Below, piece after piece: positions 26,032 to 31,207 of a stretch of DNA of 64,000 bases. The DNA lies in the NCBI RefSeq assembly GCF_039621805.1, contig NZ_CP155073.1, forward strand, positions 2,914,001 to 2,978,000, in the 5' to 3' direction. Positions within the stretch are counted from its first letter, which is position 1. Every line of letters starts with the position of its first letter. Made by a program: the position numbers and the translations under genes. The stretch is from Paraburkholderia sp. PREW-6R (lineage in GTDB: Bacteria > Pseudomonadota > Gammaproteobacteria > Burkholderiales > Burkholderiaceae). The notes under the pieces are model-generated. The model searched no databases. It was not told the origin of the DNA and saw only the letters and a program-made list of their open reading frames with translations.

Positions 26032-26108
26032 CGGGGTGTAGCTTAGCCTGGTAGAGCGCTACGTTCGGGACGTAGAGGCCGGAGGTTCGAATCCTCTCAC
26101 CCCGACCA
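26032..26108 (+). tRNA. tRNA-Pro (anticodon CGG)
   Basis: The 77-nt cloverleaf is complete. The acceptor stem is CGGGGTG/CACCCCG, with discriminator A and an encoded CCA. The anticodon stem CTACG/CGTAG frames the loop TTCGGGA, so the anticodon is CGG. The T-arm is GGAGGTTCGAATCCTCT. Its last 47 nt are repeated exactly at 31135-31181, making this gene the integration target of the adjacent element. The tRNA stays intact at the left junction. Confidence 0.97.
26062..26108 (+). repeat. attL core (47-bp direct repeat, 3' part of tRNA-Pro)
   Basis: Identical over 47 bp to 31135-31181. It runs from the anticodon stem through CCA. The two copies diverge on both sides, so they are the recombination cores flanking the element. 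Confidence 0.93.
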
Positions 26109-26122
26109 AATTTTCTCCTTAC

Positions 26123-26153
26123 AAAAACAGCGGACTAGATGTCCGCTGTTTTT
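26123..26153. terminator. Terminator just inside attL
   Basis: AAAAACAGCGGAC and GTCCGCTGTTTTT form a perfect 13-bp stem with a 5-nt loop, 15 nt after the tRNA CCA. It terminates tRNA-Pro transcription at the element side. Confidence 0.88.
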
Positions 26154-26177
26154 GTTTGTGCGCTCGGCAGTGGCAAT

Positions 26178-26186
26178 TCGGTGGCA
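26178..26186 (+). promoter_or_regulatory. Left candidate recombinase arm site
   Basis: TCGGTGGCA, 70 bp inside attL. The related GTGGCAA lies at 26170-26176. The same 9-mer recurs twice near attR. Confidence 0.45.
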
Positions 26187-26331
26187 GTGGCCGCCTGGTT
26201 CGCCATTGAAAAAAGTTGAGAAAAAGTTGCCCGGCTGTTCTCAGGCACTTTTCGTCAACCACGCCCCCAGCGACAAATCATGCGCGCTTTTTCGACTTAT
26301 ACCGTGCTCCTCAACAAACTGGAGCATGGAC

Positions 26332-27900
26332 ATGGCGTCCATCGAAAACCGCTCGCGCTACGAAGTCACGGTCAGGAACCGGGATGACCTCACCAAGACC
26401 TTTCCCCACACCGCCAAATCGAGGGCCGAAACCTACTGTCAGCTGCTGACAGCTCAACGGCTCAAACCGAAGCTGGGTCGCCTGGATGATTGCTATGTCG
26501 TCCGTGACCGCAGCGTTTCGCGCAAGTCCCAGACGCTCCCTGCTTCCAGCGCCAAAGAGGCCAAGGAAATCCTGGACACGCTCAAAGCCGAACACAAACG
26601 CAGCCTGTTCATCGACTACGCCCAGGGGTTCAAGACAACCTTCGCTGACCTCCTGATTCGCTACCTGCGCGAAGAATCACCTCGTCACAAAAGCTTCGAG
26701 GTCGAGGCCTACAAAATCAACGCGCTCCTTGAGGACGCCGGGCTGGAGCGTCAGGACCTGGCTGAAATTGTCGCCAGGCACCCGAACGTCCATCCGAAGG
26801 TCGCTGCAATGAAGCTCCGGAAACCTACCGGAGCACGGATGGGGCAAACATCCGAGGCCAGCAAGTTCATCCGCAGGAGCTTCGCAGAACTTGTCCCGGA
26901 CGACTTCAAGGACTACATCGACGAACGCTGCCAGGCCGTCGCAGAATCCACGGTCGACCGTGAAATTGATATTTTTTCTGCAGTCTGCCGCATGGCCATC
27001 GACAGCTGGCGCATTCACGTCGAAAAAAATCCGATGGACGGGGTGCGCCGTCCCCGTTATTACAACGAGCGGGACCGCCGACTCAAAGGCGATGAGGAAG
27101 AGCGCCTTCTCCGCGCAGCACGTGAGGAAGACCGCACCCAGTCCATCAACATGCGCCTCGAACAACTGATGGCGGCGGAGCGCCAGGAAGCCAACGATGC
27201 CCGCACGGTGTACCGCCGCAAGCAGGTCATCAAGAGCGCCCGCCAGCTCTACCTGCAGGAAGCCGAGAGCACCTATGAGCAGGTCCCGTTACTCGAGACC
27301 TTCGTGCAATTCCAGTTGATGACGGCCGCGCGGCGCAGCGAGACGCTGACGCTGACCTGGTCGAACGTCGACCTGGAAGCGCAGACGGCGTATCTGCCGG
27401 AAACGAAAAACGGCCGGGCGCGCAAGCTTGCGCTTCGCAGCGCGCTGGTCGAGATGCTGCGGCAACTGCCGCGCACCGGCGAGCTCGTGTTTCCGATTGG
27501 TGTCGACGGCCTGCGCAAGGCCTGGCAGCGGATGTGCCAGCAGGCTGGCCTGACTGACGGCAACGAACTGCGGATTCACGACCTGCGGCATGAAGCGATT
27601 TCGCGCGTCGCAGAAGCCGGCAGCAACACGCCCGGCGGATTTTCGCTGGTCGACCTCCAGCATTTCAGCGGCCATCGCGACGTGCGCATGCTGCTGCGTT
27701 ATGCGCATCTCTGCACGCAGAGCCTGGCCAAGCGACTCGATGCTGCATTCGAATCGCCTTCCGAGTCCATTTCGCATCACGGACGGCGCCGTCTCACGGG
27801 TAAAGCGTCAATCACGCTCGAGGAGATTCTGAACGAAGCGACAGTCACGCCCGAATGCGCCATCGCCGTTCATAGCGACATCCAGCCCACCGCGCGCTGA
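26332..27900 (+). CDS. Tyrosine recombinase / phage-type integrase
   Basis: The 522-residue protein has the tyrosine-recombinase catalytic set. Arg334 is in TAARRSETL, His416 and Arg419 in HDLRHEA, His448 in SGHRDVR, and the nucleophile Tyr457 in LLRYAH. Residues 1-330 hold the arm- and core-binding regions, including an unusually long Lys/Arg/Glu-rich helical insertion just before the catalytic domain. The ATG at 26332 follows GGAG at 7 nt; the frame is open to 26152. It should insert the element into, and excise it from, the tRNA-Pro gene. Confidence 0.92.
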   Translation: MASIENRSRYEVTVRNRDDLTKTFPHTAKSRAETYCQLLTAQRLKPKLGRLDDCYVVRDRSVSRKSQTLPASSAKEAKEILDTLKAEHKRSLFIDYAQGFKTTFADLLIRYLREESPRHKSFEVEAYKINALLEDAGLERQDLAEIVARHPNVHPKVAAMKLRKPTGARMGQTSEASKFIRRSFAELVPDDFKDYIDERCQAVAESTVDREIDIFSAVCRMAIDSWRIHVEKNPMDGVRRPRYYNERDRRLKGDEEERLLRAAREEDRTQSINMRLEQLMAAERQEANDARTVYRRKQVIKSARQLYLQEAESTYEQVPLLETFVQFQLMTAARRSETLTLTWSNVDLEAQTAYLPETKNGRARKLALRSALVEMLRQLPRTGELVFPIGVDGLRKAWQRMCQQAGLTDGNELRIHDLRHEAISRVAEAGSNTPGGFSLVDLQHFSGHRDVRMLLRYAHLCTQSLAKRLDAAFESPSESISHHGRRRLTGKASITLEEILNEATVTPECAIAVHSDIQPTAR

Positions 27901-27937: not shown

Positions 27938-28333
27938 ATGTCACATCTCACACTCGTTGCAGCCCATTCGGCGCCGACTAGCAAGACGACGGCTGCCGGC
28001 CGGACGCTGCACAGTGAATTTCTGGCCACAGAACTCGCACCTGGCATATCCATCGAAAAGGCATGCTACCCGTCCGTGGTTCTGTTCGAGATGCGCTGCC
28101 AGCCTACTCCACACGAGCTGGCTCAAGGCCGACTCCTACTTTATGGGGCTGGGCTTCTGTATTTGGAGGAGGACGCCTTCGAGCCGGGATACATCCTGCT
28201 CGAGAAACCGCTCAAGTTCGCCGCGAGATTCCCTGACCTGAAGCATCTCATCCCCCTCCTTTTGCATTCGAAGATACGAGTTCTGTCGAATTCAACCCCT
28301 ATCGCACGCCCAAGCCTTGCCATCGTCCCATAA
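27938..28333 (+). CDS. Hypothetical protein, 131 aa, island cargo
   Basis: I do not recognise this protein. It follows the integrase by 37 bp in the same direction, so it may be co-transcribed. Visible features are a polar N-terminus, a central segment RCQPTPHELAQGRLLLYGAG and the C-terminal region KHLIPLLLHSKIRVL. There is no signal peptide and no clear DNA-binding fold. An excisionase role is possible from position alone but unsupported by motif. The ribosome site AAGGA is 11 nt from the ATG, which is rather far. Confidence 0.6.
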   Translation: MSHLTLVAAHSAPTSKTTAAGRTLHSEFLATELAPGISIEKACYPSVVLFEMRCQPTPHELAQGRLLLYGAGLLYLEEDAFEPGYILLEKPLKFAARFPDLKHLIPLLLHSKIRVLSNSTPIARPSLAIVP

Positions 28334-28368: not shown

Positions 28369-28467
28369 CGGTGAGCGATTTTTCGAAGACATGGGGGATT
28401 CACAAACCCGATAAGCATCATCTGATACCCACCATGCAGCAATATCACCAGTCGGCCGAATGCCCGG

Positions 28468-29301
28468 CTATTCGGCCAGCACGGGCTGCTGTGGCTCAGC
28501 GGCAAGACTAATGTGCTCCAGCCTCCAGCGCTTCAACTGCTTGAACATCTCGTACGTCAGCACCGACTCCGACATCGGCTCACAAAAGCGGAGTTCGATT
28601 TGCTGCCATTGCTTCGAAGGGGCGAGCAGCTTTTCCTTGAACGCCTTCTCGATGGCATCAGCGGCCGCCCTTGCAGCGCTTTCCGCAGCGACGAAATCAG
28701 GGGCCGCCTGGTGAAGAATAGTAATGTCGAGCACATAGGTGTCATCTGGACCGTTCCGAGTAACTTCCACACCTTCGTCCACGTCGAAGAAGACACCGAT
28801 AATCAGTTCCCCATGCGGCTTGACGGCCTTCGCGATCTTCTCCGCCAGCTTGGTTTCCTTGGTCAGCCGGCGCTCGAATTCATCCGCAAAAGCGGAGCGA
28901 CGGTATCGACTCGCCAGCCACATCTGAAGGACGGCGTAGTCCTCGGAACGGAGGCGGACTTCGGACCGAGGCAAGTATTCATTTAGCCTGAGCTTGTCGA
29001 TACCAACTTTGGCCGTCGCCTCGAACTCCGCCCAGAAGGGAGCCTCGCCTGCAAATTCAACGTGAAGCTTGCGCGCATTTTTGGCGTGGGTGCAGTTGCC
29101 GTCCTTCACGGTCAAACATCCCACGACGACCTCGACGACCGGCTCGAACTGCGGGTCCTGTGCGAGGTCACAGTCGTGAGTTGCAACGACGACTATCGTC
29201 TTGTCGGGACTTGCCGCATGGCGAAGCCCCAACGCATCAATTGCGGCGTCGCTGAGCAGAAATCCTTGGCGCCACGGTGTCTCACGATTCCACTCCACCA
29301 C
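28468..29301 (-). CDS. Uncharacterised THDCDL-motif protein (third gene of island operon)
   Basis: This 277-residue cytosolic protein has no fold that I can name. The N-terminus contains WRQGFLLS and a strand-turn VVVATHDCDLAQD (residues about 37-49). NCTHAKNARKLH (69-80) follows, giving a His42/Cys44/Cys70/His72 set that could bind metal or form an active site. I recall similar HDCD plus KN-R-L patterns in uncharacterised proteins of mobile regions, but cannot cite a family. The middle holds KETKLAEKIAKAVKP. The start is GTG after AAAGGTG, 9 bp beyond the HTH gene stop, so it is tightly coupled. Confidence 0.75.
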   Translation of the reverse strand: MVEWNRETPWRQGFLLSDAAIDALGLRHAASPDKTIVVVATHDCDLAQDPQFEPVVEVVVGCLTVKDGNCTHAKNARKLHVEFAGEAPFWAEFEATAKVGIDKLRLNEYLPRSEVRLRSEDYAVLQMWLASRYRRSAFADEFERRLTKETKLAEKIAKAVKPHGELIIGVFFDVDEGVEVTRNGPDDTYVLDITILHQAAPDFVAAESAARAAADAIEKAFKEKLLAPSKQWQQIELRFCEPMSESVLTYEMFKQLKRWRLEHISLAAEPQQPVLAE

Positions 29302-29310
29302 TTCGCACCT

Positions 29311-29940
29311 TTACGCCTGGTCGTTGGATGAAGGAAGGTCAAAGTCGGCAGTAGCTGACGTCTTCGCGCGGTTCGCAATTCGAGCGTTCATACGCTCACG
29401 TTGTGCGCTCTCGCGCTGGTGAATCTGCGCCAGCACCAACGCTGCGTCGCGCGCAGACTCTCCTGACTGGGCGACTTGCATAAGCGTCCGGCCATTGGCG
29501 AATCTTCGCTTAAGCAATGCCGCGTTTACGGCGACCCCCTTGTGGGCTAGCACATCTGCCGCTTGAGCAAGGTCCGCCAATCTGGCTGCATTTTCCTCTG
29601 CAACCTGCTCGCCATTGAGCCAGTTGTAGACGGACTGACGGGACACACCGAGTGTCGCAGCAAGGTCCGACACGGCCGGACGCAAAACTTCGCGAATCCG
29701 CGCAAGGTCTTCTGCTGGCGTTCGAACATCCTCGACTACCGCTACATCGGCGGTGCTATAGAGCGCCTGCTGAGCACCAGTTTGAAGGCGCTCCAGTGAC
29801 AAGTGGCCGCCCGTACCTATCACCGTCAATGCCGCTCCAGCCGCCGCGACCCACCCTACGAGCCGCACAAGGCTTGAACTGCCGCCAGTCGTCGCCGGGC
29901 GTTCGGTGACCCATCCACCGTAGGACATCTCGCTGCTCAT
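29311..29940 (-). CDS. Membrane-anchored helix-turn-helix protein (second gene of island operon)
   Basis: The 209-residue protein has a single hydrophobic segment (about 24-42, LVRLVGWVAAAGAALTVIG). An HTH at about 86-110 (VSDLAATLGVSRQSVYNWLNGEQ) is typical of Xre-like or plasmid-type DNA binders. A charged Arg/Ala-rich helical tail follows. A membrane helix on an HTH protein is unusual for a simple repressor. Translation start is strong: AAGGAGG 5 nt before the ATG. It is 10 bp after the TIGR04255-like gene. It may autoregulate the operon or sense the membrane; both are inference. Confidence 0.82.
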   Translation of the reverse strand: MSSEMSYGGWVTERPATTGGSSSLVRLVGWVAAAGAALTVIGTGGHLSLERLQTGAQQALYSTADVAVVEDVRTPAEDLARIREVLRPAVSDLAATLGVSRQSVYNWLNGEQVAEENAARLADLAQAADVLAHKGVAVNAALLKRRFANGRTLMQVAQSGESARDAALVLAQIHQRESAQRERMNARIANRAKTSATADFDLPSSNDQA

Positions 29941-29950
29941 AGCGCCTCCT

Positions 29951-30745
29951 TCAGGCCCAAGTGGCCAAGGCGTGGTCTGTTACGATAGCCTTGAAGCACT
30001 TGTCGATTTCGTTGTGAAGGGCTGTCAACCGGGTTTCGATTTTTTCCAAATCGAACACCTCCCGCTGAGTGACGGAGGCATCCGTATCGATTACGGCGTG
30101 CAAGCCTACGTGCTGTGTAAATCGAGGGTCTATATTTGGTGCCAGCGAGGTTAGTTCAACCGGCAGACCAACTTGCCCATGACGAATAATCACGCGCGAG
30201 ACAAGCTGCCCTGCTGGACTGGTCACGAGCGTTTCACTGACCGAATGTTGGTGCTGCGCGTGGTCGCGCAACGAGAGTCCGAGGACCTCAGGTACAAGAA
30301 AGTCTCGCAGCGACTCCTTTTCTCCTGACGGCAACACAGCATCCAGATACCGGAGGCCGATTCTCTCGATAAAATCGAGATGCAGGGCGTCATGCACAGT
30401 GCCAAGACCTGCCAACAATGCATGAGAAAAGGCATCGAACGTTTCGTACTCTGTGGTCTGAAACGACAGTGCGTTCGTCTCCAGAACGAACCTTGTGCTG
30501 CCCGAAATATCGCCAAACTGGTACCTCGACTGAGGTGTGAAAGTCGGCGCCGCAACCTGGCCATGCTCAATAGCTCCGAAAGGAAGCACAAGTCGCTGGA
30601 CCACCTCCTGTTTGAAGTCCGGAAAATGCTTTTCCCGCATTTTGGCCTGGATGGCCGAAATGTATGCGTCCAGATTCAGAACAGGGTTGAACTGGATTTG
30701 GGCGACGGTGTAGTAGACCGGTGCGTTGCTCAGCCTCTTACCCAT
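29951..30745 (-). CDS. TIGR04255-family protein (first gene of island operon)
   Basis: The 264-residue product starts MGKRLSNAPVYYTVAQIQFNP, the pattern of the TIGR04255 family (a Leu-x-Asn-Ala-Pro motif, then a strand, then a FPDF segment at about 41-44). Later features RFVLETNALSFQTTEYE and IERIGLRYLDAV also fit. The family is sporadically distributed and uncharacterised. The ATG at 30745 follows GAGGA at 5 nt; the frame is open to 30970 but those residues are not family-like. It leads a three-gene operon with 10- and 9-bp gaps. Confidence 0.82.
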   Translation of the reverse strand: MGKRLSNAPVYYTVAQIQFNPVLNLDAYISAIQAKMREKHFPDFKQEVVQRLVLPFGAIEHGQVAAPTFTPQSRYQFGDISGSTRFVLETNALSFQTTEYETFDAFSHALLAGLGTVHDALHLDFIERIGLRYLDAVLPSGEKESLRDFLVPEVLGLSLRDHAQHQHSVSETLVTSPAGQLVSRVIIRHGQVGLPVELTSLAPNIDPRFTQHVGLHAVIDTDASVTQREVFDLEKIETRLTALHNEIDKCFKAIVTDHALATWA

Positions 30746-30763: not shown

Positions 30764-30800
30764 TTGACAGGCGGGTTGACACTTTACACTGTACTTGACA
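30764..30800 (-). promoter_or_regulatory. Three TGTCAA motifs at the island operon promoter
   Basis: Minus strand TGTCAA occurs at 30795-30800, 30776-30781 and 30764-30769. Two copies are extended as CTGTCAAGT. The first lies in the promoter spacer and the others just downstream, a position suited to repression by the operon's own HTH protein. Confidence 0.5.
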
Positions 30801-30960: not shown

Positions 30961-31040
30961 TCGGTGGCATCTTTGATTCAATGTCGTGCGAAAAAAAACA
31001 GGTGGCAAATAGATGTCAATTTCGCGTGGATTGCCACCGA
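30961..31040. promoter_or_regulatory. Right candidate recombinase arm sites
   Basis: TCGGTGGCA occurs at 30961-30969 (plus) and 31032-31040 (minus), with GGTGGCAA at 31001-31008. GGTGGCAA (31001-31008) and TTGCCACC (31031-31038) also form an 8-bp inverted repeat. All lie 95-175 bp inside attR. Confidence 0.5.
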
Positions 31041-31134: not shown

Positions 31135-31181
31135 CGTTCGGGACGTAGAGGCCGGAGGTTCGAATCCTCTCACCCCGACCA
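31135..31181 (+). repeat. attR core (47-bp copy of tRNA-Pro 3' end)
   Basis: Exact repeat of 26062-26108. It lacks the acceptor 5' strand and D-arm, so it is not a functional tRNA gene. Confidence 0.93.
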
Positions 31182-31207
31182 GATTTACCTTGTTCGTTCA
31201 AGGTTCG

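Follow-up and report, generated by a model that had tools for sequence, protein, structure and literature searches.

A three-gene operon on the reverse strand of the Paraburkholderia sp. PREW-6R genome was analysed within a 64,000-nt stretch of contig NZ_CP155073.1 (positions 2,914,001 to 2,978,000; hereafter the window). We infer, with moderate confidence, that this operon is a mobile tripartite toxin-antitoxin-like anti-phage module with an exchangeable effector. The first gene, A (29951..30745), encodes a TIGR04255 family protein of 264 amino acids; the second, B (29311..29940), a helix-turn-helix (HTH) protein of 209 amino acids; and the third, C (28468..29301), a protein of 277 amino acids with a THDCDL motif and a GTG start. 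Their head-to-tail order, with gaps of 10 and 9 nt, was read from the open reading frames (ORFs) of the window and agrees with what an earlier note on this DNA had claimed.

A, B and C are inherited as one unit, which is found on integrative elements, plasmids and prophages. The three genes were adjacent in all five named contigs. Searches with C found it in 10 of 300 genomes of the order (11 matches) and in 8 of 398 genomes of the phylum, the host's own genome being in both samples. Together they gave 18 distinct loci, 3 of which are cut by contig ends. At the 15 assessable loci B always adjoins C, and at 13 of them C comes directly after A and B; in genomes G059 and G355, B and C are present and no A was detected in about 6 kb upstream. 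Eight plasmid records match C, and all seven that were opened carry A-B-C, in hosts ranging from Klebsiella and Pseudomonas to Meiothermus and Gloeocapsa; two phage records match C, and the single one opened carries A-B-C. Viral contigs encode C at 44 loci, with A and B in order at 41 of the 42 that have at least 1.6 kb upstream. The identity of C drops to 26% among the aligned members, and the distance matrices of A, B and C correlate at 0.94-0.96 over 42 non-redundant loci, a value reached in none of 2000 permutations. Because the same genes recur in the same order in distant genomes, their association is more than chance. The earlier note had called for a search for co-occurrence, and homologues did occur together at almost every assessable locus, frequently in a mobile or defence context. 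In Rugamonas sp. A1-17 (L006:6747-7991), A and B are naturally fused in a single ORF which lacks the N-terminal hydrophobic segment of B. A housekeeping operon was also considered and rejected, given the sparse distribution of C in the order and phylum samples, the occurrence of TIGR04255 in only 30 of the 398 phylum genomes and in none of 14 controls, and the absence of both C and TIGR04255 from G255, the sole congener listed in those samples.

The start of A was placed at the ATG at 30745, where its homologues begin; the listed ORF opens farther up, at 30970. A matches the NCBIfam model TIGR04255 with 147.6 bits (cut-off 30) over profile positions 1-251 of 252, and the model name (subfamily 'sporadTIGR04255') carries no function. 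The HTH of B is weak in Pfam (HTH_3, 21.4 bits against a cut-off of 23), and R101 and W107 of B are invariant in 14 aligned rows and in 42 of 42 non-redundant loci. C has no family in Pfam or NCBIfam, and the best PADLOC model for it was no better than E 0.04; C44, R77 and W128 are kept in all 42 non-redundant loci. A PADLOC scan of the three proteins gave nothing informative. B had been described as membrane-anchored: the window copy does have a hydrophobic stretch, beginning at residue 24, with a 19-residue mean of 1.81 (1.78-1.89 in close relatives), but the feature is not conserved in distant B proteins, whose best stretches range from 0.56 to 1.72 (1.28 in the fused Rugamonas copy). Nor was the supposed single promoter confirmed: a sigma-70 scan gave no consensus promoter upstream of A, and the one promoter-like site found within C is at chance level. 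A hairpin with an 8-bp stem and an 8-nt loop, seen by eye on the reverse strand (28454..28477), spans the stop codon of C; it has no T-run and was not picked up by a terminator scan of the window, and is a possible transcript end.

A conserved block lies just 5′ of the ribosome site of A, and farther upstream the sequence diverges among relatives. In the window this putative iteron operator occupies 30764..30800 on the reverse strand and reads TGTMAA-N6-TGTMAA-N-TGTMAA-N6-TGTMAA. Its copies, at -55, -43, -36 and -24 from the A start, are direct repeats on the sense strand with start-to-start spacings of 12, 7 and 12. At least two copies, always with the 12-nt step, were found at 17 of 25 type-I loci compared with none of 33 TIGR04255 loci with other partners, a count that left out L091, L094, L102, L107, L113, L130 and L132. 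When these were examined later, the type-I loci L130 and L132 showed the 12-nt pair, L091, L094, L102 (A-B at a contig end) and L107 showed none, and L113 had no upstream DNA. The motif was derived from the window and relatives, including part of the 25 type-I loci, so the tests on viral loci and with the exact pattern weigh more. At the viral loci, none of which was used for derivation, at least two copies were found in all 41 with enough upstream DNA and the 12-nt step in 40; many of these 41 are close relatives, and 20 belong to the non-redundant set. The whole viral collection contained the exact 37-nt pattern at two places, each immediately upstream of A (one contig being L202). The pattern also occurred twice in 300 genomes, only upstream of A-B-C (the host's own genome and G078), with no occurrence of the reversed-pattern control; these two come from derivation loci and show rarity, and only the two viral matches are independent. 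In the window the pattern was found once, against none in 100 shuffles, even allowing 3 mismatches. Most type-I copies share the iteron block upstream of A, and the block is most simply read as a probable operator for B, built of direct repeats.

In the neighbourhoods examined around other TIGR04255 genes, A again comes first and a different gene stands in the last place. The third gene is a Zeta toxin (Zeta_toxin, PF06414) in three loci (39.4, 42.6 and 40.7 bits) and a canonical PemK/MazF in one (67.9 bits), although in that locus the PemK might instead form a separate toxin-antitoxin pair with the small gene upstream of it. In nine loci, sorted by eye, a short QGD...CD protein comes last. 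Its remote likeness to long C was the only suggestive pair in profile comparison (hhalign 71.5, E 3.6e-5). A constant first gene, an exchanged last gene and toxin domains among the last genes together give the look of modular toxin-antitoxin or immune systems. More broadly, three-gene immune modules may form a large class, as yet unnamed, with TIGR04255 as the constant sensor or hub, a proposal to which we give slightly less than an even chance. In such a class the middle and last genes would be exchanged, and the type-I branch would stand under the 12-7-12 iteron operator and owe its spread to P2-like prophages, to plasmids and to small tRNA elements. The exchanged effectors would comprise the MazF-like THDCDL protein, Zeta kinase, PemK/MazF, the QGD/CD protein and, as recognised by eye, NlpC/P60-like, HEPN-like and other small proteins.

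Further arrangements were seen among these operons. The loci with a Zeta toxin (L041/L117, L042/L118 and L050/L123) are TIGR04255 - HTH - Zeta toxin operons whose first and second genes are related to A and B. L086, L096, L100, L109-L112, L115, L121, L124, L125 and their relatives encode TIGR04255, a middle protein and a small protein of about 90-180 amino acids; the middle protein of this large and unexplained branch (L086/L096-type) often has a 'GWDG'-type motif, and the third genes of L096 and L095, the two scanned, gave no Pfam match. L087, L088, L119 and L122 encode TIGR04255, a short protein and a protein of 214-233 amino acids that is NlpC/P60-like by eye (HVGI ... GLTCATF), and in L108 and L114 the third gene is HEPN-like by eye (SRAYYAAL ... 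SDYEKP). None of these NlpC/P60-like- and HEPN-like-looking third proteins was over the Pfam cut-off, the HEPN-like copy scanned being that of L108.

Fold comparison of the predicted model gave the N-domain of C a predicted MazF/CcdB fold, an SH3-like barrel. The toxin-type role, which the earlier note had offered as inference, draws independent backing from the predicted fold of C and from the Zeta or PemK/MazF third genes. The model of A is confident (predicted local distance difference test score, pLDDT, 88.6) and of a pseudo-two-fold alpha/beta kind. A sequence search against solved structures was unconvincing for both proteins (best E 0.94 for C and 0.67 for A).

Several results weigh against the proposed module. 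The structure model of C is moderate (pLDDT 75.9), dropping below 50 in the C-terminal tail and four short segments, and a Foldseek search with C gave no row reaching E 0.001, the lower rows showing unrelated folds, for example that of the MamM C-terminal domain. By sequence, C was rejected as a MazF: there was no PF02452 match in Pfam at E up to 1, and hhalign against 21 PemK/MazF rows gave probabilities of 0.8 for long C, 0.7 for the C N-domain and 0.8 for short C, where the negative pairs (B or A versus MazF; long or short C versus A) gave 0.1-0.3. By eye, the RPxL motif of MazF has no counterpart in C. The fold search with A found no clear relative, so a sensor role for A rests on genome context. 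In addition, neither A nor C is covered by a PADLOC-DB model, and fewer than two iterons were found at 8 of the 25 type-I loci.

The surroundings of the operon bear on a defence function. It adjoins a P2-type portal gene on 26 of the 44 viral contigs; on 17 of these 26, the DNA that was fetched also includes the replication gene gpA on the opposite side. According to Rousset 2022 (PMC9122126), the gpA-gpQ interval, the site of old and tin in P2, is a hotspot for anti-phage systems. Different cargo was seen in the six further P2 portal regions that were opened. In a test of 9 whole-genome A-B-C loci with long flanks, the 74 neighbouring ORFs matched 224 PADLOC models (1e-8) compared with 3 for 74 control proteins, counts that are inflated by overlapping models. 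The controls were drawn at random from 196 proteins in 18 regions on the same contigs as the loci. The test left out L126, whose contig is too short to supply controls, three short loci (L128, L130 and L132), the plasmid loci, the named loci and the window, and two fetched control regions of the host's own genome were unused; ORF calling was crude, so that antisense ORFs are among the entries. In two of the nine regions the protein sets of known systems were present, namely AbiEi/AbiEii and viperin (L092) and the reverse transcriptase, ATPase and HNH proteins of retron I-A (L116); four other neighbour proteins checked (two in L092, one in L097 and one in L099) had no match at 1e-30. Restriction-modification genes lie near the copies on the Meiothermus and Acinetobacter plasmids, and the annotation of the other plasmid contexts opened showed no such obvious defence cluster.

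An alternative is that the operon is an addiction module, a toxin-antitoxin unit which mainly retains its plasmid, prophage or island and whose defence effect is incidental. The mobile carriage of A-B-C and the toxin-type third genes of related operons agree with this, but integrated elements generally need little addiction. Moreover, the interval which the operon occupies in P2-like prophages is one published as an antiviral hotspot (PMC9122126). We regard this alternative as unlikely.

It is less likely again that A-B-C is already known. Rousset 2022 (PMC9122126) reports the validation of an unnamed three-gene system of the P2 hotspot, 'with no clear predicted domain', which protects E. coli from phage P1. 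The hotspot and the number of genes are the same, and no window copy has a Pfam match over the cut-off. However, DNA resembling two prophage variants of A-B-C was found in just 19 of 5426 E. coli genomes, although divergent variants could be missed, whereas 1226 have a P2-like portal. PADLOC-DB 2023 is also without a model matching the prophage A or C, the presence of that three-gene system in PADLOC being unconfirmed. The P1-protecting system is presumably the one called Rst_3HP in DefenseFinder. One E. coli copy is annotated as TIGR04255, transcriptional regulator and hypothetical protein and lies between a DinI-like gene and the portal; DNA of the E. coli prophage operon had no match in the phage collection. 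The operon had been put forward as undescribed. The name 'TIGR04255' occurs in no paper of the literature searched, and combined-term searches gave no paper recognised, from titles and abstract openings, as describing A-B-C, with the caveat that A-B-C may be the 2022 system.

Non-toxic superinfection exclusion, in which the module would block one phage step directly with C as an inhibitor and not a toxin, is the least probable reading; it fits the prophage carriage in the old-tin interval and a C without MazF-like sequence motifs, but not the Zeta or PemK/MazF toxin found as third gene in related operons, and three regulated genes exceed the needs of a simple exclusion protein.

If A-B-C is a toxin-antitoxin-like anti-phage module, B would bind the TGTMAA iterons via its HTH and repress the operon as an autorepressor, and together with A would hold C inactive. 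The two loci that lack A and keep intact B and C suggest that B rather than A is the direct antitoxin, and the A-B fusion suggests that A and B work together. A, which is retained while effectors are swapped, may be the sensor or hub that responds to infection. C would be the toxin effector, its MazF/CcdB-like domain let go from the A-B complex, and may act via a conserved site around Cys44, Asp45, Glu57 and Arg77, stopping growth before phage progeny form; RNA cleavage is a first guess for its activity.

In the window, the operon is carried by a mobile element integrated at tRNA-Pro(CGG) (26032..26108, forward strand). The parts of a tRNA-targeted integrative element are present: a tyrosine integrase (26152..27900, forward strand; PF00589, 71.7 bits), a 52-nt repeat including the tRNA 3′ end as attL (26062..26113, forward strand) and, 98% identical to it, as attR (31135..31186, forward strand), and insert-free sites in relatives. 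Besides the integrase and A-B-C, the 5.07-kb element has one further ORF taken as a gene, which encodes 131 amino acids (27938..28333, forward strand) and has no family in Pfam, NCBIfam or PADLOC. The right flank of the element was found in all 58 genomes of the genus searched, the host's own included. Ten of the 11 congener loci fetched are insert-free, with an intact tRNA-Pro joined straight to the right flank, and the eleventh (L191) has an interrupted tRNA-Pro site. A second genus also has A-B-C beside an att site of this kind: in Trinickia symbiotica (L003), A is preceded, at a distance of about 340 nt, by a perfect 47-nt fragment of the tRNA-Pro 3′ end. In several congeners (G736, G748, G721 and G726), the first ~58 nt of the right flank are also present ~23 kb from the remainder; these displaced copies point to a shared integration hotspot at the tRNA-Pro site.

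If the proposed reading is correct, TIGR04255, a family unnamed in the searched literature, would be the constant part of widespread phage-defence modules with interchangeable effectors, and the 37-nt operator would be a direct handle for finding and regulating them. Genes annotated as 'TIGR04255 family protein', 'transcriptional regulator' and 'hypothetical protein' would become one testable unit, of which E. coli prophage copies exist.

Among known systems, the one validated by Rousset 2022 is alike in its hotspot, its three genes and its lack of clear domains (PMC9122126). MazEF / PemIK type II systems (PF02452) are alike in the predicted MazF/CcdB fold of the C N-domain and in the canonical PemK that stands third in one operon related to A-B-C. 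They differ in that no sequence relation to C was found and in having two genes instead of three, and C, at 277 amino acids, carries an additional domain and a distinct set of conserved Cys, Asp and Arg residues. Type II antitoxins bind an operator and autoregulate; B, with its weak HTH, and the conserved iterons upstream of A would be candidates for such a pair. The closest known architecture is CmdTAC (PMC11618068), an anti-phage system of three genes in which a toxin is held by an antitoxin and a third, sensing component. In CmdTAC that component is a chaperone resembling SecB, and an ADP-ribosyltransferase serves as the toxin, whereas C is predicted to be MazF/CcdB-like; SecB was absent among the fold matches listed for A, although a SecB likeness could still exist.
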